Assembly: GCA_951230915.1 (NCBI GenBank) | Contig: OX579634.1 | Coordinates: forward strand, 18,378,725-18,442,724 | Source: Antitrichia curtipendula | Lineage: Eukaryota > Streptophyta > Bryopsida > Hypnales > Leucodontaceae | Direction: 5' to 3' | Length of the DNA: 64,000 nucleotides | Shown: positions 6,055 through 62,563 of the stretch, in pieces | How positions within the stretch are numbered: the first letter of the stretch is position 1 | How the letters are laid out: each line of letters opens with the position of its first letter | Notes under the pieces: model-generated | The model's database searches: none | The model's input: only the letters and a program-made list of their open reading frames with translations | Told to the model about the DNA's origin: nothing | Made by a program: the position numbers and the translations under genes

Positions 6055-6254
6055 NNNNNNNNNNNNNNNNNNNNNNNNNNNNNNNNNNNNNNNNNNNNNN
6101 NNNNNNNNNNNNNNNNNNNNNNNNNNNNNNNNNNNNNNNNNNNNNNNNNNNNNNNNNNNNNNNNNNNNNNNNNNNNNNNNNNNNNNNNNNNNNNNNNNNN
6201 NNNNNNNNNNNNNNNNNNNNNNNNNNNNNNNNNNNNNNNNNNNNNNNNNNNNNN
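6055..6254. other. Assembly gap (200 N)
   Basis: Exactly 200 undefined bases, a typical fixed-size scaffold gap. It hides the outer end of the left LTR of the copia element and any target-site duplication. Frames spanning it are artefacts. Confidence 0.99.
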
Positions 6255-7070: not shown

Positions 7071-7508
7071 TCAATAGTTACTTGCATATTGTGCAACAGT
7101 TGACACGGCACATACAATGTTGGGTCTAGTATGCATTGCTAAATACAGTAAGGATCCCACAATTTTTTGAAATGGAAAAAGTGGAGCGCTCTCCTCATTG
7201 TCTTTCTTAGGATAGCTTAGATGTACATTTGCATCGCTTAGGGTCAAAATAGAGGAAGCATCCTGGAATCCATATTTTTTTAAAATAGTCTTTGTGTACT
7301 TTTGCCGGTCAATATATAGCATTTTTCGAAATCTATCACGGCTAATATGTATTCCCATGTAGACATTGGCATCACCAACAATGACTTCAAAAGTTGACTT
7401 TAGGTATGAGATCACTTTGTCAAGCAATTGCTTATCTTTGCACATGGCAAGTCCATCGTCCATCCACATGATAAGAGTGAGCTTGGACGCTGATGCTGAA
7501 AAGAACAA
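7071..7508 (-). pseudogene. copia reverse transcriptase, C-terminal half
   Basis: A 145-codon open frame. It carries WMDDGL in place of the usual Y-V-D-D catalytic box (both aspartates kept), then YMGIHISRD, LYIDRQKYTKTILKKYGF and GSLLYLAMHTRPNI, which are hallmarks of copia RT and its connection to RNase H. It is separated from the N-terminal half by a MITE insertion and a frame change. Confidence 0.85.
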
Positions 7509-7664
7509 ACATGAATCTGCTTGACTTTGGATTAGGTTATACAGTTTTAAGAAATCTAAGAAGGTTTTTTCCCCACTCTAGCAAATTGTTTTGGCGGTTT
7601 AGTCCTTTCCGTATTCTACACACTTTGCTTTGACTACCTGGAAAGAGTCGGTATATTTCTTCTT

Positions 7665-7867
7665 CACTACAAGAGAAAGGGGTGTTTTAAGTAGTGTCCT
7701 AGACATCACGTCTTTTAAGTAACGTCTTTTGAGTAAGTTTTTAAGTAAAATTTTACTAAAAAGATTGTCTTTTTAGTAAAATTTTACTTAAAAACTTACT
7801 CAAAAGACGTTACTTAAAAGACGTGATGTTTAGGACACTACTTAAAATACCCCTTTCTCTTGTAGTG
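7665..7867. mobile_element. Palindromic CACTA-like MITE inserted in copia RT
   Basis: A 203-bp nearly perfect palindrome. It starts CACTACAAGAGAAAGGGG and ends with its reverse complement, CCCCTTTCTCTTGTAGTG. Arms are about 95 bp. It is flanked by CTT on both sides (7662-7664 and 7868-7870), a 3-bp target duplication as expected for the CACTA superfamily, whose termini also begin CACTA. Copia reverse-transcriptase coding sequence lies on both sides, so it inserted into the retroelement. A related copy sits at 20830. Confidence 0.85.
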
Positions 7868-7904
7868 CTTCAAAATCCTTTGGTAACGCCATGTAGATTT
7901 CTTC

Positions 7905-8294
7905 CTATAATGTAGTGTTTAAATAGACTCTCTTGATATCAAATTGCACCACATCAAAACCTTCCGCTCCTACAATCGATAGCATAACTTGTATAGTCTT
8001 TGTTCGTGTTGTTGGGGCAAAAGTTTCATCGTAATCCATACCTTGAGTTTGAGTGAATCCTTTTGCTACCAAATGGGCTTTGAATTGCTCTATAGCACCA
8101 TTTGTTTTTACCTTGATTTTAAAAACCCATTTGTTTTTTACAGTAGACCTCCCTTTTGACAAGAAATCCATAATCCACGTTTCATTTTTAAGTAGCGAAT
8201 CTATCTCTTCAGCCATAGCTTTTTGCCATTGGTCTCTAAATTCACTGTTGATGGCCTGGTTGTAAGTCTTGGGCTCTTCTGGGAGGACTAACAT
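7905..8294 (-). pseudogene. copia reverse transcriptase, N-terminal half
   Basis: 129 codons starting near the classic copia RT entry (QWQKAMAEEIDSLLKNETW). They continue through KNKWVFKIKVKTNGAIEQFKA and VAKGFTQTQGMDYDETFAP to a V-Q-F-D-I-K motif that contains the first catalytic Asp. The sequence is well preserved up to the break. Confidence 0.9.
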
Positions 8295-9013
8295 TCTTTT
8301 AGCATGAACTTTTTTAGTAATAGCAATGCAGAATGTAGACAGTGATAATCCACTACCATCTCAACAACTTATTTGTGTCTGTCCACTCACATGTATAGGC
8401 TTGGTTGCACTATATAAATCTTCTATTAGCCTTGTTTGTAATGTTGGATTCAAATCATCATCTAAAGATGTTGGCAACATTAGCTTGTAGCTCTTGTGAC
8501 TTGCAATGCTCCCATTGCTTGCAATGTTGCTACTGATTTGATAGTTGCTCACATTGGTTTGAGTGTTGTTTCTACTTATTCGATCGCTCCCCCCACTAGT
8601 TTGATCACTACTCCCATTGATTAGTGTTTCCTGCATATTGATTGGCACGCCAATTTCTTGATCTATTGGTAGATTCCGATCAACAAAAGTTTCTTGTATG
8701 TCGATTATTGGTGGAAATTCCTAATCTCCTTGTTCATTCATACTGACGCATTGAGATGAGGAATTAACGTTGTTAAAATCGAGAGGTGGTGTAATAGCTG
8801 TCTCAATAGTTTCTGGAAAGAATACCGCAACTGTTGTAATGTCTTTATAATTGCTTGTACTTGTCCCAAAATTTGGAACGCTCTCCTCATCAAATATAAC
8901 ATCAAAACTATTATCTTTCTTCCTTTGGGACACCACAGACAGTAGGCTTTTAAAGTATTACAATAGCCCATAAAAATAACATCTTTGGCTTTAATATCTA
9001 GCTTCTGACGCCT

Positions 9014-9360
9014 CTATTTAGGGATACGAGTGTAGCATAAACTACCAAACTCTTTGAAATAGTTGAGATATGGTCTCTTTCCATGCCACATTTGAAATGA
9101 TGTAGACCCTAGAATTGTCTTGCTAGATATACGATTAAGTGTATAAACTATTGTATTAACAACTTCTCTCCAGAATTCCAATAGCATGCCTTGATGATGT
9201 AACATTGAGCATGCACTTTCTACTATCATTCGGTTGTCACATTCTGCTACTCCATTTTGCTTAAGGTAGTATGGTGCCGTGAATTCATGACAGATGCCTT
9301 TGCTAGATAGATAGTCCTGAAATTTCTTCAACACGTATTAACTCCCATTGTCTGTTCGTA
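9014..9360 (-). pseudogene. copia integrase core remnant
   Basis: The minus strand gives a stretch beginning LRTDNG (second catalytic Asp), then a TAA, then YLSSKGICHEFTAPYYLKQN and GVAE, which holds the catalytic Glu. SFQMWHGKRPYLNYFKEFGS follows. This is the copia integrase catalytic core and its C-terminal edge, interrupted by a stop. Confidence 0.85.
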
Positions 9361-9539
9361 ATTTCACCATCCTATTTCATATCTCATTTTTCACAAGCTG
9401 ATATAGGCTTTGAAATTTTGTGATTATGTTTTGTTTATCTTTAAGAAAATATACAAAGCGGAAACCACTATGGTCATCTTTGTATATTACAAAATATCAA
9501 TGGCCTTCGTACAAACAGACTTGAAAAGGGCCGGAGATA

Positions 9540-10006
9540 TCAGAAATGGAAAAAATGACCAGGTTCAGAGTCCCTTCTTCTCTCAAAATTTACTAGAAAT
9601 GTAGTCCGATGGATCTTGCCATGAGCACAACGTCTACAAATGAGTTTCACTTTCGCTTTTTCTAGAGGTGGCAATCCTATCGCAACATTATCCCTAGCCA
9701 TTTGTTTCAACGCGTGTGTATTCACATTGCTCATCGATAGTGCCATTTCTGCAGATCTCTGTTGAAATGAGAGCTAGGTGTAGGAACATTGACGTTTGAC
9801 TTGGCCACATTAGCTGAGCTCTGATTAGTGGCAAAGTGAATATCCATGCACCATAAGCCTTTGTGCTTGTGCGCTGTCATGATTAAACGGCCTAAACCAT
9901 CTTCTGAAATCATCTTGCAAATATCTCTTACATGTAAGATCACAATTCTCTTCTTTGTTAGTCTATTGGTCAAGATTAGATTTTTGCGTAGCTTAGAGAC
10001 ATACAA
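9540..10006 (-). pseudogene. copia GAG-pre-integrase / zinc-binding region
   Basis: Two overlapping frames cover the segment between protease and integrase. One contains GLWCMDIHF. The other contains ICRRCAHGKIHRTTF, a C-x2-C...H zinc-binding pattern typical of the copia pre-integrase domain. A frameshift joins them near 9735. Confidence 0.7.
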
Positions 10007-10033
10007 AACGTTCTTAAGTCTTAGAGAATTGAT

Positions 10034-10420
10034 CTAGTCGTTCACCTTAGCTTGAATAGTAATATCGCCGATTCTTTTGACATACAACTTGCGGTCATCT
10101 ACTACTGCTACGTTCCAAGTCATATTTTCAACCGGTTGAAAATTGTGAAACCATTGTCTTTTGTTGGTCACATGCTTAGTCGCTCCTGAATTTGCAAACC
10201 ACAAATGACTTGACTTCTGTTCTTCTGAACTAACACAAAAAGCCACCGCTAATGATGATAACAATTGCTTAGATAAGACTTCGTGAACAACACTTGCACT
10301 GACATTAACGTGACTATGCTTTGTTTTTTTTGCCTTTCTGTCTAGTGTGTTGATTGCTATGAGAGTGCTTGGGTGATACTGACTCATTTGAACTTTGACT
10401 CTGCTCACGTTGTCTCCCAA
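10034..10420 (-). pseudogene. copia aspartic protease remnant
   Basis: 128 codons with LWFANSGATKHVTN, which aligns with the copia protease site W-x-x-D-S-G-A-T. Asn replaces the catalytic Asp, so the protease would be inactive even without other lesions. Downstream HNF and VKRIGDITIQ fit the family. Confidence 0.8.
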
Positions 10421-10617
10421 AATGTCCTCTAAAGCCGCACTTATAGCATCAAAAATGCCTTTTTAGCTTAGCCAAACGTTTTGTTTGTTCCTTCTTTTGG
10501 CTCAACTGTGAGCGAAGTTTTTGACATGGTGCTCTTTGTGAAGAACGCCATATCTGCTTACACATCAAACAATCATTCCCAATCTTTCTTCTTATTTTGA
10601 AATTTAACCAAACGCAT

Positions 10618-27813: not shown

Positions 27814-30800
27814 ATGGCGGACCGGCAGCGCCACCGTCTGGCCACTATTGCGCGTCATCTTGCTCCCGAAGAACGAAGCGAGAATGGCACACATGCTTCG
27901 CTCTCGTTGTCGCAGTGCGTGGCCGCGCTTGCCCCAACCAATGCCACTCCGGGAGGTCGCAAATTGAGCAGTTACGACCGCGTGCACGGATCCGTGTCCC
28001 GGGAGCTTCCCGTCTGGGTGTCTGTTTCGCTGCCTGCAGGCCAGGACTTTCAGGATATTCTGTATGAGAAGGCCGCTGGCGAAGGGATTGTCAAGGTAAT
28101 GCGCACTCGCTAACGTAGAATTTTCTCTTGTGGTGACTTTGTGTGTGAGGTAGAGGCAACGAAAAAACGTCCTTCGAAGGGCTGGTATCATTTTCAATTT
28201 TTCTTGAAAGAGAAATTGAAGCCGCGTCGAACCCACTTTTCTTTATATATTTTGAAGAATTGTGGAATCTGTTATGGATTTTGAAGTTGTAAGTGCTCTC
28301 AAAGCATACCCACCCTTCAAATATTCGCTGCTGCCCTCCCTATTCCTCGCTTTGGTAATTGTCGTTTTGGGAGGGCATTGCACGTTGAAGAATTCAATGC
28401 CATCCATGTGGTAGATTTGCATAAGCGACACCCTCTACCTCAGATAGAACTTGAATTGACCAGCCTAGTCATGAAATTGGGGTCTCGTACACGGACAGAT
28501 TGTCTAAAGTTCATGGTGGGTGTGTTAAATTTTTTTGGCAGAGTTTGCAAGTTCTTTCTTCCGAGTCGATTTCTTGAATGATGTGGTTGCTTTCGGCAGA
28601 TTACGATCAACAGGCCGGAGAGAAGGAATGCCTTCCGACCTTTGACTGTCGGGGAGCTAAAGCGTGCCTTTGATTTGGCGCGTGATGATACTCAAGTGGG
28701 AGTGATTATCTTCACAGGCAAGGTGCTGCGCTGCTCTTCTTCACATTCTGCTGGCTCTATAATTAATCTTCCCAGTGTTGCTCTTCTACTGTGCCTGTGC
28801 GTGTCTTGATTCCGGTGACGCATGTGAGTTAGTTAGAATGACGCCTCTCATGTTTCAATTGGGAATGCGCGCTTTTGCAGGGGATTGAAGCTTTCTGCAG
28901 TGGAGGGGATCAAGCAGTTCGGGGAAAACATGGCTATGTTGGCGATGATAACATTGGTCGCCTTAATATTCTTGATGTACAGGTACTAGTTGGCTTTTCA
29001 TGCATGCTACGGCTCCTCTTGACCATGACCTCTGGTACATATCATTATGAAAGTTCATTTAGCTCGTACGTGTATAGTGGATGTCTTGGAGAACTCAGAG
29101 ACTGTTAACCCAACCTGGAAGGACGTTGCGGCCGATGGATGACTTTCAAGATTAGTGTAGAAATGAAGAGTGCACCTAGTGTTTCAAAAATCGGATCATT
29201 TTGGGTAAAGTACCTTGGTGATAGGTCTTAGGTCTTGTCCTTTCAGGGTTACCCCAAGGGCAAAAGTGGCAAAAGTGGTTGCTTTGTTATTTAACTAGGA
29301 GTTGAATAAACCATTTAAGAAGCTTCAAGGAATGTGACAGAATGGATCAATAGAGAAGCAAATCATGCTCTACATTTCTGAATGATTGAAATATGTTTTG
29401 AAAGTTTTTATAATCGACTATTAACTTCCAAAACGAATCCCTATTTTTAGATTGGGCTATTAGGGTTTACGTACCTTTGGATTAGGACCACGTATCCTGT
29501 TGAGATTGAGGAGTACAATAGGGTGACATGAGCAGGATTTCGAAGCTCGTAGTCTGCGTTCTTGGACGCTGGTTTTGATATTTTTTGGTTGAATAGTACT
29601 TCTTGCTGTCCTCTTCAATTGCTAAGTGTGTCTATGCTCCTATCTTGCAGATACAAATACGGAGGCTACCAAAGCCAGTTATTGCAATGGTGAGTTGGCC
29701 AATTGTGTTTTGACCCCACTTGTGAAATTGGGTAATGATATGTCGGAGGTCTCTTTATTCTTAAATTAAAATGAACATAATTTAAAATGAGCTTAAACTT
29801 TTATTTTAGATTAATTCGAATTCATAGCTATCTTCTTGGAAGATCGGTCTTAAAGCTGTAGTCTTGATGAGACCACATTCTTGAATGGAAAGTAACAGGA
29901 ATGTTTCGTTCCAACTTTTTTTATGTAGGTGGCAGGCTATGCAGTTGGTGGAGGACATGTACTTCACATGGTATGCGACCTCACGATTGCAGCCGAGAAT
30001 GCCGTTTTCGGACAAACTGGGCCCAAGGTACTCCTTTTCAGTTATTTTTCTATTGAGATTTTCTCGTTAGTCATTCACATTGTTTGGCTCACGAATCACC
30101 AAACTATTCGTGACATTAATTGGTCTATTCATTCTACAGGTAGGGAGCTTCGATGCTGGCTACGGTTGCAGCATGATGGCACGTCTGGTAATCATCGCCA
30201 ATTGTTTGCTAAATATGTTTGTCTATTCCCAGTTAGTGTGAATTTTTATTGTAGCAAATCCTCTTTTGTGCTCTACTCCATATTTGTGACCGTCATGTTC
30301 TGATTGTTTCCAAAGCTAAAGTGTTTACAGCAGACATGGTGTCATTGTGCTTATAGCTTGTTACCGGAAGTTATATGCAGAGTATTTAGTAAGTAGTGGA
30401 AATCCTATTTACGAAATGATCGCAGGTATCTTATTGTCAATTTTCCTAGCATGGAGGGCAAGATTCATTCTTCACTTGTTGACTCAATCCATCTTGGATT
30501 CTCTTTTTCAGGTTGGTCAGAAGAAGGCACGCGAGATGTGGTTTTTAGCAAGATTTTATAACGCCGAAGAGGCAGACAAGATGGGTCTAGTCAACAAAGT
30601 TGTTCCTGTAAGTTACCCTCCTTACATGCGAATGCCATAACTTAACTGAATGGGAAAGTTTCGTGGTTCACTGATCACTTGTGTTTCAATACGCAGCTGG
30701 AGAAACTGGAGGAGGAAACTGTTGTCTGGAGTCGTGAAATTTTGAGGAATAGCCCTACGGCAGTCCGACTCTGCAAGTCGGCTCTAAACGCTGTCGAAGA

Positions 30801-33246: not shown

Positions 33247-35491
33247 TTACAACCTGGACTCAGTCCATCTTGGACACGAGCAAGTTTTTCCGCCGCCTCG
33301 CCATGACGCGCCGCAACTGTAGCAAAATTCGTTCTTGCACCTGCGTAATCAATGTGATATCAGCTTACACGTCAAATGAGTACAAGATGGAACGAAGAAA
33401 AAACTCATTATATATTAGATTCATATAGATGAGCAAGCTGCAGAGCACTTACAAGCAAGTCATGTGAAAACAGCCAGAGCTGAGCTCAACCAAGCGCCCA
33501 CATTGCTTGCAGCGTTGCCATTTCTGCTGGTCCGCCAGCTGCAGCAGCTTCTCATCTCCCAAAAGACGAAGGTTCTTCAGGTTGGCTTGAAACTCGCCGC
33601 AACTCAAGTCGCCATGCCAGGGCACCACACACTCCACGCAGAATGCGCGGTGACAAGCCTCACATTCCACACAGCTACTGGAATTGGCAGCAAGGGGTGG
33701 CGGATGTGCCGAACTTGATGGCTTCTCATTGTCTGCGCTGGCGGGTTTCATGAGCAACGCAGAGCAATCTCTGAAGGGACAGTACATGCGCTCTGATTCA
33801 GGAATGGCAGCTTCTATTTGCCTTCGTGTCAGCACTTCCAGCAAAGACGAACTCAGAAGAAATGACAATTGGGTGAAGGATATGAGAGCTGGGCATTCAG
33901 AATGCAGACAGCTCACGTGCATTTGCCCTCCATACTGTATCCTCGCCTCTGCATGTCTTGTCACACACGTCGCACAGAACTGATGTCCGCACCCTGTTAT
34001 GACAAACAAACAACACATGTTACTGGTAATTTGAACATGGTACTCTAAGTTCACCGGACATTACAATCTTTCCCAGCATAGCTGGGATCCCCCTATGGAA
34101 ATCTGACGCATACAGGACATTAAATGTGAAAAATAACACATGTCAAGCTATCTTCCAAGCTCCCTCCCCTTTCAAGATCCACTCGGGTAAGATTGAGGTA
34201 CAGCTGCAAATCTAAACCCAAGTGCAGGCACTACATTCTCTTACATCGCAAGGTGGTTACGAATGTTAAGAAGAGTACCTTCGAGAGTAACAAAGGTGCT
34301 TGTCAATTGCGTGGCTTCAAAGCAGATCTGGCAAATTTGAGTTCCAGAGTCTCCGGCATTCACGTCTGTCTCGGTTGCTCCATGCTCAACACTTAATCCT
34401 GCGATAATCAAGGGTTCGCCAGTCTTGGTGCTCGGGCTATCAAAAGTGAACGGAGAATCATCTGGGAAGCTATCACCATCATCTTCCTGCACCACCACCA
34501 CCTTTTCCTTGCCTTTTCCTTGCTGCTTTGGATCCAGTATGCATCTTCTGGGAGACGTATTCTCACGGATGGTCAATGGCGTCATGCATAGTTTTGCACG
34601 CTGCATAACACGGATAACTTCGCCTGCTGCATCACCATTGTCCCTACCTCCACTACCACGAGACGTCACACCATCATCCAACAGGCTAAGAACTGCGTCG
34701 TATTCATCAACTTCATATAAAAACGGGTCACGAGAATCGGGTGGGGCGGTGAAGGGTTCTGCCATGTTAACTCCAATTCGGTCCCAGTCTTGTTGCGGTA
34801 TGTTCGCTAGCGAGCGTGCGAATTGCGCATCGTGCTCCTGGATGGCGTCTAAGTGGGCTAGTCTGGCTGCCTCTAGTAAGGACAGTTGCGTCTCCTCTGT
34901 CTCCTCTACAAAGCTGCCAAGTTCGTCCACAGCCAAGTTCAATGCAGCTCCCTTGTCTATGTCACTGGGAGCCTGAGCATCTGCACACATTACAAGTATA
35001 TCATAGTCCAAAACACCCGCGTACTCGAGATGTACGAACTTCATTTCAAAGGAGAAGTACAGCACAACACAAGGCTCGTGAGGATTGTCTCATTGTCTCT
35101 GTTACGAGGTACAATTTTTTCCAAGTGAACAAATCCCAGGCCCGATCCCAGGCCAATGACACAATGCCAGCTAAGTGTTGGGAACTTCCAGGTGCTGGGT
35201 CATCAGATCAGACAACCTAACAAATTAACTTGAGTATCCTCGCACAAACTTCGAAACAATTACTAATTGAGGCATTCGTGGAAACCAACCTTTGATGCCT
35301 ACTAATTGCCGCGACGGATCCAGCTCCAAGTCGTCTTCACCAGCTCCAGGTACCTCAAGCTCTGGCAAATCTCTTTTACTCTTCATGATTTCCTGCACTT
35401 GCAAAAGGAACGCCAACTCCGCGTCTCTGGCTTCCACAATGGCCTTGGCCAACTCCACGGCCTGCATCCTAGAAACGGTGACCTCCTCCAT
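33247..35491 (-). CDS. RBR (RING1-IBR-RING2) E3 ubiquitin ligase
   Basis: RING/HECT-hybrid ubiquitin ligase: RING1 recruits the E2 and a RING2 cysteine takes the ubiquitin. Four exons: 35491-35290, 34980-34279, 33993-33453 and 33340-33247, giving 512 residues with consistent GT-AG phases. The N-terminus has a helical region (AVELAKAIVEARDAELAFLL) and an acidic linker, typical of plant RBRs. RING1 starts at C284-x2-C287 and continues CGHQFCATC (303-311). YCPFRDCSALL follows. The IBR zinc ligands include CVECEACHRAFCVEC. RING2 is WQRCKQCGRLVE...SSGCFHMTC, with the presumed catalytic Cys at 476, then CLCKNEFCYSCG. The end is uncertain: the TAA at 33247-33249 overlaps a strong splice donor (GTAAGTA), so one more exon is possible. 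The substrate cannot be told. Confidence 0.9.
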
Positions 35492-55265: not shown

Positions 55266-55383
55266 AACGGCAATTTCGTTAAAATGGCATATGAAATCCG
55301 CCAATTTGTCTGAACATCTAGGACAATTATAGATGTAAAACCGCCAAAGTTCTGGAATGCCGCCATTTTAATGAAATTCACAT
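55266..55383. mobile_element. Short deletion derivative of the 321-bp MITE
   Basis: Starts CGGCAATTTCGTTAAAATGG and ends CGCCATTTTAATGAAATTCA, i.e. both ends of the MITE family at 56606, 59535 and 60173, with most of the middle missing (ATCTAGGACA and CCGCCAAAGTTCTGGAAT remain). Confidence 0.65.
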
Positions 55384-56605
55384 TCATTGTAGATTACTAC
55401 CACTATTTACAAATCCACTCCAATATATTTAATTTTGTAATCAACATTAAAACAACATATAATTTACAATCCAAATAAATACATCCTAATACGCGTACTA
55501 AATGAAATTGAAAAACTTAACCAAAATTAATAGGCTGTTAACTCACGCCAACCAAGTTCTTTCACTCTCTCTCAATGTCTTGTCTCAACTCTTACACTAA
55601 AGTAGCATCACCTAATTTTAAAACCTTTTGTCCTCGGGCACCTAAAAAATAATTTTGAATGAACACTTCCATGATTCAAAAACACCACAACTTTTCAGAA
55701 ACAATCAATACAAGGTGAGAAGTTTTTTGAAGCAACGAATGAGACTTAAGACATTTCATACTTCAAGGGTGTCCATTCAAGGTGAGTCTTCCATTTAAGG
55801 TGAGTTTAGTGCTATGTGTAGACTATCCTATGTTTTCAACATTAAAAATTTGTAAAATATTATTAAAGCATTGGAAAATTACGAAACCACTTGGGTTGCA
55901 TTTTTCTTGTTTGTGTTTTGCTAGTAACATCATCAATTCTTTTTTGTCATTCGAACTTTCGAGATAGTGGGACTAGAAAAAGTGTAGCTTTTAGGGTGTT
56001 GTTACCTTATCTGAACCCTTGCACGAATTGAATTACCTTGCCCAGTAGAATATAAATATAGACTGCAGGATGTCATCTTCCGTTTCTGCTGTGGACTATC
56101 TGGGTAGGTTTGCTGAATCGTTGGCAACCTCCCGGATGCTCCGACATGGCAACGGCCTACTCCTTGAGCTTGTGCCCACATAGTGCCCACCATGCGCTCT
56201 CCGACTGTGAGCTCGCGCTCGCAGGTTGCCGACGCGCTCCCCGCTTCCACCGCTCTTCCAGATGCGCACCCGTCTTCTGCTCGCCACGCCCTCCTGGAGC
56301 CCACAATCTAATATTTGCCTGCTCGTCCTCAGGAATCTGGCCGTACGGGCTTCCGCACATCCGTAGTCCGGAATGTACGACTGCACTACGGATGAGAACA
56401 GGCGCCGGTTGACTTGCACATCCTGAATGCATGGTCGTCCCCCCGGCCCTTTGGGGATCGAGTGAGGAAGCTGGCATGGGGATTCGACTGGGGATTGGGG
56501 ATACAGAATAGACTGAGCTTCCAGGACGACGTATATAAGCACAACCCATTGCTCCTCTGGTTTATCATTTTCCTGGACTGACTTGCTCGATTGATTACTG
56601 CAGTT
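55384..56605. other. Intergenic DNA with a GC-rich block upstream of the transferrin gene
   Basis: AT-rich to 56080, then a GC-rich block 56100-56560. Several long frames cross the block in both strands, a consequence of its composition; none shows a family motif. It may be promoter DNA or a decayed exon of another gene. A similar GC-rich block precedes the transferrin pseudogene (60780-61150). Confidence 0.35.
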
Positions 56606-56926
56606 ATGGGCAATTTCGTTAAAATGGCATATTCCGTATGCCATTTTCAGAGCGGCCACTTTGAACTGCGAAAGTGACATCTACGAAGGGTATAGATTAC
56701 AAAAATCTTTGCCTGATATAGATTTTACAAATCTACCACTAATGTACATTTCAAATCGTGCGGTCTGAACTTTGAAAGCAACATCTATGCCTATTGTAGA
56801 TTTCAGACATCTATAAGTGGTTTAGATTTCAAAAATCTAGGACAGTTGAACATTTCAGAGCGGCCGCTCTGAACTGTGAAAACTGCCAAAGTTACGGAAT
56901 TTCGCCATTTTAACGAAATTGCCCAT
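56606..56926 (+). mobile_element. 321-bp MITE, copy 1
   Basis: Perfect terminal inverted repeats of 23 bp starting ATGGGCAATTTCGTTAAAAT. The interior is also partly self-complementary (CAGAGCGGCC near one end, CAGAGCGGCCGCTCTG near the other). TA lies at both junctions, and AGTT flanks both sides. It ends 56 bp before the transferrin ATG. Confidence 0.8.
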
Positions 56927-56982
56927 AGTTACTTTGCTTTCAATTGCAAGCGCTGCGTTAGGGAGTTCAGTGGCGCGCAGTC

Positions 56983-58666
56983 ATGGCGGGCGTGGCGTTC
57001 TTGCTGCTGGCTTCCAGCTTGTTCGTGGGCTCGGTCTTGGCGCAAGCGCCAGCTCCAGCTCCACCGGCTGCAGCTGGGAGTGAGTGCGCATTGAATTAAT
57101 TCGTCGCTGAGAGACTAGCTTAAAATTGATATTGGAAGCTCATGTGCTGGATGGTGTTGAGGTGTGTACCCAGCTAATGCATGTTCGTCTCGACAGCTCG
57201 TGGTACTGATTGTTCGTCCATGTTCAGGTTGGGTTTGGTGTGTGAGCTCGGCCGATGATAAACCAGTCTGTGATCAGATGACTGCGCTTCTGGCTACAAT
57301 TGAGACCTCCGGCGCCCACAGGCATTCTTGGTAAGTCAGAGCTAGTGTTTCTCTGCCTTGCTAGTTCAAGTGTAAACTGTCTTGAAGTTCGGGAGTCAGT
57401 GGGAGCCTGGAACTTATTAATTCTATCGGAATCGACGTTCCTTACTATATTCGATGCAGTTCGGTATTCTACTTACCGAATATTATATATTGTCCTTTCA
57501 GGGTATGGTGATGTGCAAGTACACTTGTCAATTAATGTTATCTGACTCGTTTACGTGATGCAGCGTTCTTGGAACGGACGAGGAGGACTGCATGAAGAGG
57601 ATTAACGCAGGAGCCGCACAAGTCGGTGTATTTGACGGCAGTTTCATCGACACCGCTGCTGGGACGTACACCTTGAAGCCCATTCGCACAGAAGGCTCGA
57701 GCTCGGGACTTGATAACCAGTACTACGCTGTGGGCATCGTGAAGAAGACTGCTTGTCCTGGAAAGTTGGCCGACCTCAAGGGAAAGCGCTCATGTCACAG
57801 TGGCTATGGAAGGAGCGCTGGTTGGACTCTACCAATCTCGGCCTTGGTTGAAGCCAACATCATTCCAATCGTCTCCAAGTAAGCTCTGTTCCATTATTTG
57901 ATGACTCCAATAAATGATAAGTTTGGAATTCATTAGAGAAGAGGACGCAGTCAATCAGCTCTGATGTGGTTTTATTTGCAGGACTCCTGCGAAGAATGAC
58001 ATTGAGTCTGTGACGGCCTTCTTCTCCAAGACGTGTGCTGCTTCGGCCACTCCAGAAAATTCCATCTGCACTGCCTGCAGGAACACTACTGGTTGCACAA
58101 CATCTGATGAATTCTACGACTACGAGGGAGCCTTCCGGGGCGTCGTGGAGGACAGTTGCGACATAGGCTTCACAAAGTTCACCATTGCCGCCGAGTATGC
58201 CCTGGGTGGACCCAAGGCGCAAGCCTGGACTGGATTGGAAGCTCCGTCTGCGTACGGGCTCGTCTGCAGCTCCGGCACCGGGCCTGTCTGCGGAGACATC
58301 TCCAGCTTCGCCACTTGCAACTTTGGCTCTGCTCCCCCTCACACCATCATGGTTGCTGGAACTTACTCCCAGACCGAAATCACCCAGTTCAATGTCGTGA
58401 TGGACCTCGCGAACTCCAACGCTGAATTCAATGACCTTTTCTTCTCCGGGAAGAACACCGCTGGAGCCATCTTTTCGTCAGATGCCACGAAGACGTTGAC
58501 TTACAACGGAACTGCTGTGGCTTTGACTTCAAGCATCAACGCCGCCAGGGCTACCATCACGAGGGTGAATGAGACTCCCACTGAAGCCAGCGGCGCCTCC
58601 GCCATCGCGAAGAGTGGGCTGCTGGCCGTTGCTTCCGCAATTGCGTCGATGTGGATGTTCTGCTAA
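56983..58666 (+). CDS. Single-lobe transferrin, secreted with GPI-type C-terminus
   Basis: Predicted iron(III)-binding surface protein. Four exons: 56983-57079, 57228-57330, 57564-57878 and 57982-58666, giving 399 residues with consistent GT-AG phases. Residues 1-20 are a signal peptide (AGVAFLLLASSLFVGSVLA), followed by an Ala/Pro linker. The lobe begins WVWCVSSADD (34-43). The four transferrin iron ligands are present: Asp91 (VFDGSF), Tyr121 (NQYYAVGIVKK), Tyr219 (YDYEGAF) and His292 (PPHTIMV). The anion-binding loop is SCHSGYGRSAGW (143-154), with Arg150 kept and Ser146 where Thr is usual. About 16 cysteines fit disulfides. The end, ASGASAIAKSGLLAVASAIA plus SMWMFC, is a small-residue site and hydrophobic tail typical of GPI anchoring. 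Length equals one lobe; animal serum forms have two. The start is the only in-frame ATG giving a signal peptide. Confidence 0.9.
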
Positions 58667-59534: not shown

Positions 59535-59855
59535 ATGGGCAATTTCGTTAAAATGGCGAAATTCCGTAACTTTGGCAGTTTTCACAGTTCAGAGCGGCCG
59601 CTCTGAAATGTTCAACTGTCCTAGATTTCTGAAATTTAAACCACTTATAGATGTTTGAAATCTACAACAGTCATAGATGTTTCTTTCAAAGTTCAGACCA
59701 CGCGATTTGAAATGTACATTAGTGTTAGATTTCTGAAATCTATATAAGACAAAGATTTATGTAATCTATACCCCTCATAGATGTCACTTTCGCAGTTCAA
59801 AGTGGCTGCTCTGAAAATGGCATACGGAATATGCCATTTTAACGAAATTGCCCAT
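59535..59855 (-). mobile_element. 321-bp MITE, copy 2 (inverted)
   Basis: Same 321-bp length and ends as copy 1, but in reverse orientation: the end reading GGCGAAATTCCGTAACTTTG comes first. TA at both junctions. Few differences from the other copies. Confidence 0.8.
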
Positions 59856-60172: not shown

Positions 60173-60493
60173 ATGGGCAATTTCGTTAAAATGGCATATT
60201 CCGTATGCCATTTTCAGAGCGGCCACTTTGAACTGCGAAAGTGACATCTACGAGGGGTATAGATTACATAAATCTTTGTCTTATATAGATTTCAGAAATC
60301 TAGCACCAATGTACATTTCAAATCGCGCGGTCTGAACTTTGAAAGCAACATCTATGACTATTGTAGATTTATGACATCTATAAGTGGTTTAGATTTGAGA
60401 AATCTAGGATAGTTGAACATTTCAGAGCGGCCGCTCTGAACTGTGAAAACTGCCAAAGTTACGGAATTTCGCCATTTTAACGAAATTGCCCAT
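60173..60493 (+). mobile_element. 321-bp MITE, copy 3
   Basis: Same orientation and length as copy 1, with only scattered differences (for example CTACGAGGGG versus CTACGAAGGG). Flanks TTG and TTA do not give a clear target duplication. Confidence 0.8.
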
Positions 60494-61447: not shown

Positions 61448-62563
61448 ACGGTGGCGTGTTTCCTGGTGGCGTCCCTGCTGGTTTATTCTGCCTGGTCTCA
61501 AGGGCCTGCAGCTGCGCCAGCGACATCAAAGAGTGAGTGCCATGGCTTCTTGCATTTCGAATTTAATGTCCTTTAATACTTTGTCTATATGATAATTTAT
61601 GTGATTGTCATGAATGGCTACCGAATTTGTTAATACTAATGTTGCCGTTTCTGAACAGGCTGGACGTGTCGTGTTGCCGATGCCACCGATAAAATAACTT
61701 GTGATGAGATGACTGGACTTTTGGCCACAATTGAGACCTCTGGTGCACACACACATTCTTGGTAAGTCAGAGCATGTCCCGGCCGAGAGTCTGTTTCATA
61801 TAGAACCATGATTAGCTGACCAATCTTAGCGATTTTTGCCTTGAGATGTGAGCAATGTGTGTGTCGATCTTCTCGTAGGGAATGCAATATTGCCGAAGCT
61901 GGATACGGTGAATACATGTAGGAATCACGTTGTTTGAAGTGATAATTTTCAGATTCTAGCTTTTGGAATCCAACTGTACGTAGAGTCACGACTGTGGTGT
62001 TTCAGTTGTGCGATTAAACGAATGCATGCTATCAGCGTGGTGGGAGCAAGTGGAGAGGATTGCATGCATGAAGATTGAAGAAGATCAACACAGGCGAAGT
62101 GCAATTCGGAATGTTCGACGGAGGTTTCATCGACACCGCTGCTGCGACATGCATACAGCTTGAAGCCCATTCGCACGGAAGGCTCCAGCATGGGGCCTGA
62201 CAATCAGTACTACGCTGTGGGGGTCGTGAAGAAGACTGCTTGCCCTGGAAAGTTAAGTTGGCCGACCTCAAAGGAAAGAGCTCATGCCACGGTAATTACG
62301 GGCGCAGCGCTGATTGAACCCTTCCCATCGCCACCCTAGTGGATCTCAACATCATCCCCACCATCTCCAAGTAAGAGGGCAACGCCCTATACACAGCCAC
62401 GCCATTGAAAAATTAAAATTCGAATTTGATTGAGTAATTGAATAGTTGATCGATTGAATATTTCTGCTGATTTATTAATTTTGTTTACGGCCAGCATCAA
62501 TGGCGCCAGGGGGGAGCAATCATCATCGCCTCCGTGATGGTGTCAATGTGGATGCTCTGCTAG
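61448..62563 (+). pseudogene. Transferrin pseudogene, tandem duplicate
   Basis: Retains the exon plan of the gene at 56983: exon 1 at 61448-61532 (hydrophobic leader, but ACG where the start ATG should be), exon 2 at 61659-61761 (103 nt, same size; DEMTGLLATIETSGAHTHS), exon 3 at 62036-62370, and a final 69-nt tail at 62495-62563 encoding the C-terminal hydrophobic end (SMWMLC). Exon 3 has several short insertions (net +20 nt compared with the gene) and a TGG-to-TGA change in the anion-loop region. Some 600 nt of exon 4 is deleted, including the second Tyr and His ligands. It cannot make a functional protein. Confidence 0.88.

Follow-up and report, generated by a model that had tools for sequence, protein, structure and literature searches.

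The analysed window, a stretch of most likely moss DNA of 64,000 nucleotides, carries on its forward strand an intact transferrin gene whose four joined exons form a single frame of 399 aa, running from 56983 to a stop codon that ends at 58666. The introns are of the GT-AG type, in phases 1, 2, and 2, and an in-frame stop lies 7 codons 5' of the ATG. A second, broken transferrin copy follows 2.8 kb downstream of the intact gene (61460-62562), and three near-palindromic MITE-like elements of 319 bp are present as full copies only around the transferrin locus within the 64-kb window. Neither the broken copy nor these elements figured in the original prediction. The features of the locus are the following:

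56532..56537, + strand: TATATA, a TATA-like hexamer ahead of element a that might mark a promoter (consensus match only)
56607..56925, + strand: MITE-like element a; a near-palindrome with TA on either side, its end lying 57 bp from the start codon
56983..57079, + strand: exon 1; start codon, signal-peptide-like residues, Ala/Pro-rich linker (joined frame; donor GTGAGT)
57228..57330, + strand: exon 2; the transferrin lobe begins (joined frame, Pfam; conserved in the degenerate copy)
57564..57878, + strand: exon 3; D91, Y120, S146, and R150 (joined frame, alignment, splice sites)
57982..58666, + strand: exon 4; Y219, K237, and H292, then the hydrophobic tail of the C-terminus and the stop (joined frame, alignment, splice sites)
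58592..58663, + strand: candidate GPI-attachment signal; SGAS small residues, then the hydrophobic tail (hydropathy 2.01)
59536..59854, - strand: MITE-like element b; TA on either side; identity to a 94.7%
60174..60492, + strand: MITE-like element c; flanks without TA; identity to a 95.3%
61460..61530, + strand: degenerate copy, remnant of exon 1 with signal peptide and AP linker; its stop-to-stop frame lacks an upstream ATG
61661..61759, + strand: degenerate copy, exon 2; aa sequence 66.7% identical to that of the intact gene; GT donor after it
62037..62371, + strand: degenerate copy, exon 3; shifted frames and in-frame stops; 77.7% DNA identity over 300 bp
62507..62562, + strand: degenerate copy, end of exon 4; approximately the last 18 codons; a weak match when taken alone (protein E=0.59, DNA E=0.003)

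The protein encoded by the intact gene is a single-lobe transferrin. The Pfam family Transferrin (PF00405) covers residues 36-352 with 129.8 bits (E=1.8e-37, cut-off 20.3), and a search of the PDB with the 399-aa protein matched 94 distinct sequences at E<=1e-3, the best of which is melanotransferrin. The single frame, the splice sites, and the Pfam match bear out the complete four-exon transferrin that had been proposed from the DNA. The only other Pfam match listed, PF12974 (24.2 bits), falls below its cut-off of 27, and an identity as a bacterial periplasmic phosphonate-binding protein was rejected. The AlphaFold model of a full-length relative (P0001; 10 rows) has a mean pLDDT of 41, and is unusable for cleft geometry or lobe fold.

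We mapped the iron ligands on the printed HMMER alignment of the 399-aa protein with the serotransferrin N-lobe, using the numbering of the latter. The residues that we take to be the serotransferrin ligands (D63, Y95, Y188, and H249) align with D91, Y120, Y219, and H292 of the moss protein. R124 of the anion site corresponds to R150, K206 corresponds to K237, and the anion-site Thr120 is replaced conservatively by Ser146. Four of the residues listed in the original prediction (Asp91, Tyr219, His292, and Arg150) align with their serotransferrin counterparts, and the fifth must be corrected: Tyr121 aligns with serotransferrin Tyr96, and the ligand position is Y120. In the Marchantia protein P0005, Y120 is retained and position 121 is Phe. 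D91, Y120, S146, R150, Y219, and H292 are invariant in all five full-length bryophyte proteins (the moss gene and four relatives).

The same five proteins share 14 invariant cysteines outside the tail. The moss protein keeps 11 of the 14 aligned serotransferrin cysteines; it lacks C137, C177, and C194 and has three additional ones (C131, C231, and C275). Because G225 replaces C194 and a cysteine, C231, stands six residues further on, at least one disulfide differs from those of serotransferrin. These three losses and three gains, together with the 14 invariant positions, suggest that bryophytes probably have a variant disulfide pattern. The same shift, with AFRG and a later Cys instead of AFRC, occurs in the second lobe of a priapulid melanotransferrin-like protein (P0010). 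We drew no kinship from it, the branch leading to this lobe having a length of 4.4 changes per column.

Protein searches gave 10 matches among 7998 scored candidates, a profile recovered the same 10 of 7998, and another search gave 4 of 108. The 10 listed relatives comprise three proteins of Ceratodon purpureus (M758_11G125800, KC19_11G130300, and M758_3G112300), two of Marchantia polymorpha (MPTK1_5g14940 and MPTK1_5g14910), four from contigs with the source label 'lgn', and the priapulid protein. The nearest among these matches are bryophyte, with identities to the moss protein of 69-81% in Ceratodon purpureus and 50-52% in Marchantia polymorpha; the full-length relatives P0001 and P0002 are 78-79% identical to it (P0001 79%). 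M758_3G112300 and MPTK1_5g14910 are shorter gene models. NCBI names the Ceratodon and Marchantia proteins 'hypothetical protein', and the UniRef label begins with 'Transferrin-' for three of the five (P0003, P0005, and P0008). In the Ceratodon locus tags the chromosome is given as 3 or 11; the two Marchantia tags are close in number (5g14910 and 5g14940), so tandem transferrin copies are likely there too. P0001, from an 'lgn' contig of 1680 bases, has an unbroken frame of 401 aa, which fits the spliced transcript of a relative. The sequences of three other relatives (P0006, P0007, and P0009) open with apparently intron-derived residues, precisely at the point where exon 4 starts in the moss gene, so the position of the intron before exon 4 appears common to the moss and the Marchantia-type relatives. 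No algal protein and no named Physcomitrium, fern, seed-plant, or charophyte protein was among the matches listed (10 of 7998 and 4 of 108 candidates, preselected by shared words and capped in number), which is no evidence of absence; the diatom phytotransferrin ISIP2a was likewise absent from these matches.

We surveyed the gene neighbourhood with a Pfam scan of 10 of the 38 frames of at least 110 aa in the window. Six frames matched, one of them below the cut-off, and four had no match. The matches are an enoyl-CoA hydratase-family piece (29929-30300, + strand), an IBR-domain piece (33452-34060, - strand), two pieces of the glycosyl hydrolase family 95 type (PF22124 and PF14498, 39497-41449, - strand), and two retroelement pieces. 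The latter are Copia-type retrotransposon fragments at 7074-10462 (- strand), with RVT_2 below the cut-off and Pol_BBD above it. The assembly has a gap, a run of 200 N, at 6055-6254. By their families, these neighbours are compatible with a plant genome and not diagnostic of plants; the moss identity of the stretch depends mainly on the transferrin.

The best-known transferrins are those of animals, which carry iron in the blood, and the gene might in principle be animal DNA brought in by contamination or misassembly. Two transferrin genes passed from insects to cacao according to a review passage (PMC8401529) that refers to Bai et al. (2016), a study which may extend to more plants. In a tree of 10 bryophyte rows, the moss gene groups with P0006, P0001, and P0004 (support 94/97), and branches with a support of 100/100 separate it from the two Marchantia rows and the near-identical P0009. 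A second tree, of 11 rows, places the five bryophyte proteins and six animal lobes on the two sides of one branch (99/97, length 2.8). Long branches meet in this tree, and a Priapulus lobe attaches to the bryophytes with weak support (65/84) and via a long branch, which could be read in favour of an animal source. This second tree speaks against a vertebrate contaminant and does not settle descent. Against contamination also stand the Ceratodon and Marchantia relatives, which sit on contigs of 15-31 Mb, the degenerate copy 2.8 kb away, and the fact that the gap noted above is the sole run of N in the window. Because the nearest relatives are Ceratodon and Marchantia proteins, we regard the gene as probably a genuine bryophyte gene, and animal contamination or misassembly as so improbable that we set it aside, mainly on account of the bryophyte relatives, the apparently shared intron position, and the second copy. 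The earlier view that the gene is no contaminant is supported by the large contigs of the relatives and by the 99/97 branch.

The degenerate copy retains parts of all four exons, and within exon 4 the part with the equivalents of Y188 and H249 was not found. As candidates for its parent lineage, P0003 and the intact gene have similar tblastn scores. Shorter stretches related to the MITE-like elements lie within 55269-55378. Folded as single-stranded DNA, element a forms a strong hairpin, far stabler than its shuffles (z=-11). Five upstream ATGs occur in 56560-56982, four within element a and one at its edge, and open frames of 8-23 codons. Because element a and these ATGs stand between the TATA-like site and the start codon, the leader would include the whole hairpin if transcription starts behind that site, and the intact copy may then be weakly translated. 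The intact frame could be a relic or silenced copy, its expression cut by the MITE-like insertion and its decay still to follow that of the adjoining copy, which is already broken. We consider this unlikely: the frame, the splice sites, and the ligands are intact, identity to P0001 and P0002 is as high as given above, none of the five upstream frames overlaps the main ATG, and the true start of transcription may lie elsewhere than behind the TATA-like site.

Both ends of the protein carry the hydrophobic segments that had been described, here confirmed by hydropathy. Residues 1-20 (56983-57042) are signal-peptide-like, with a 15-residue hydropathy of 2.30, and are followed by the Ala-Pro stretch QAPAPAPPAAAG. 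Such stretches are O-glycosylated in plant arabinogalactan proteins. The C-terminal segment is the more modest one: its hydropathy, 2.01, ranks last among the nine bryophyte proteins with a C-terminus and is only a little above the interior maximum of the moss protein, 1.77. The last 15 residues contain no charged residue, and the same holds for all eight relatives that reach the C-terminus (P0001-P0007 and P0009; P0008 is cut short). Judging from hydropathy and composition, the C-terminus fits a candidate GPI signal with a modestly hydrophobic tail.

We put a probability of roughly 0.55 on the reading that this genuine moss nuclear gene encodes a secreted transferrin with a single lobe, one of a bryophyte family, which would be held at the cell surface by a GPI anchor, bind Fe(III), and feed its uptake. 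We favour it because of the PF00405 match, the invariant ligands and cysteines, the hydrophobic ends, melanotransferrin as the best PDB match, the transcript-like frame of P0001, the apparently shared intron position, and the plasma-membrane role reported for Dunaliella transferrin. Against it weigh the altered disulfide, the modest hydrophobicity of the tail, and the MITE-like element that places upstream ATGs before the start codon. Family, residues, gene structure, and conservation among bryophytes were observed directly; from them we infer export, anchoring, iron binding, and uptake. The transferrin would be exported, its Ala/Pro linker possibly O-glycosylated, and a GPI anchor would hold it at the plasma membrane. 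Its two half-domains would close on one ferric ion and a carbonate through D91, Y120, Y219, and H292, the carbonate anion being held by R150 and S146. Ferric iron would in this way be concentrated from water films and then passed into the cell, either by endocytosis or by handover to a reductase- or ferroxidase-linked transporter.

The main rival is that the protein, on the surface or within the cell wall, binds iron to keep it from microbes and not to feed the cell. The conserved iron ligands suit such a defence, tandem duplication is common for defence genes, and a passage on Drosophila describes nutritional immunity via Transferrin 1 (PMC9343624). The uncharged hydrophobic tail, present in all nine bryophyte proteins that reach the C-terminus, suits a membrane-held protein better than a diffusible scavenger, and we judge iron withholding unlikely. 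The moss protein is most likely a cell-surface binder of ferric iron for uptake, which would work like the Dunaliella transferrin or the endocytosed phytotransferrin of diatoms.

Iron uptake in land plants is known as reduction-based or phytosiderophore-based. According to a passage in a 2017 review, higher plants had yielded no identified transferrin-like protein (PMC5404504), and no paper on bryophyte transferrins was among the literature matches listed. Because related genes occur in another moss and in a liverwort, the locus seems to hold an authentic plant gene that has been little described. Its novelty is lower than the original prediction implied, bryophyte relatives being already deposited in databases. 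We offer it as a tentative conjecture, more probably wrong than right, that bryophytes retain a third land-plant iron route, a GPI-held single-lobe transferrin catching Fe(III)-carbonate on the cell surface, which the common ancestor of mosses and liverworts already had and which was lost toward the vascular plants. If a conserved transferrin family of mosses and a liverwort is real, iron capture in early land plants would become testable in Marchantia, which is gene-targetable, and the family could show when vascular plants lost this system.

Among the systems compared, the Ceratodon and Marchantia proteins share the single lobe, where full-length also the ligands and cysteines, and a hydrophobic tail wherever the C-terminus is present. 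Serotransferrin is two-lobed and soluble. Its four iron ligands and R124 align with the moss protein (PDB 9dc4 and others), and 77 of 246 aligned N-lobe residues are identical, whereas it has Thr120 in place of Ser146 and its C137, C177, and C194 are absent from the moss protein. The Dunaliella transferrins are multi-lobe. In the green lineage, the transferrin of Dunaliella salina offers a parallel as a protein reported, in titles cited in PMC12207447, to take up iron at the plasma membrane. The diatom phytotransferrin ISIP2a is, by the description in an abstract, a further case of transferrin-type iron uptake with endocytosis. Melanotransferrin (PDB 6xr0), the best PDB match, differs in being an animal protein with two lobes and in having a Cys where the moss protein has G225; both its lobes align with the moss protein, and it is itself GPI-anchored.
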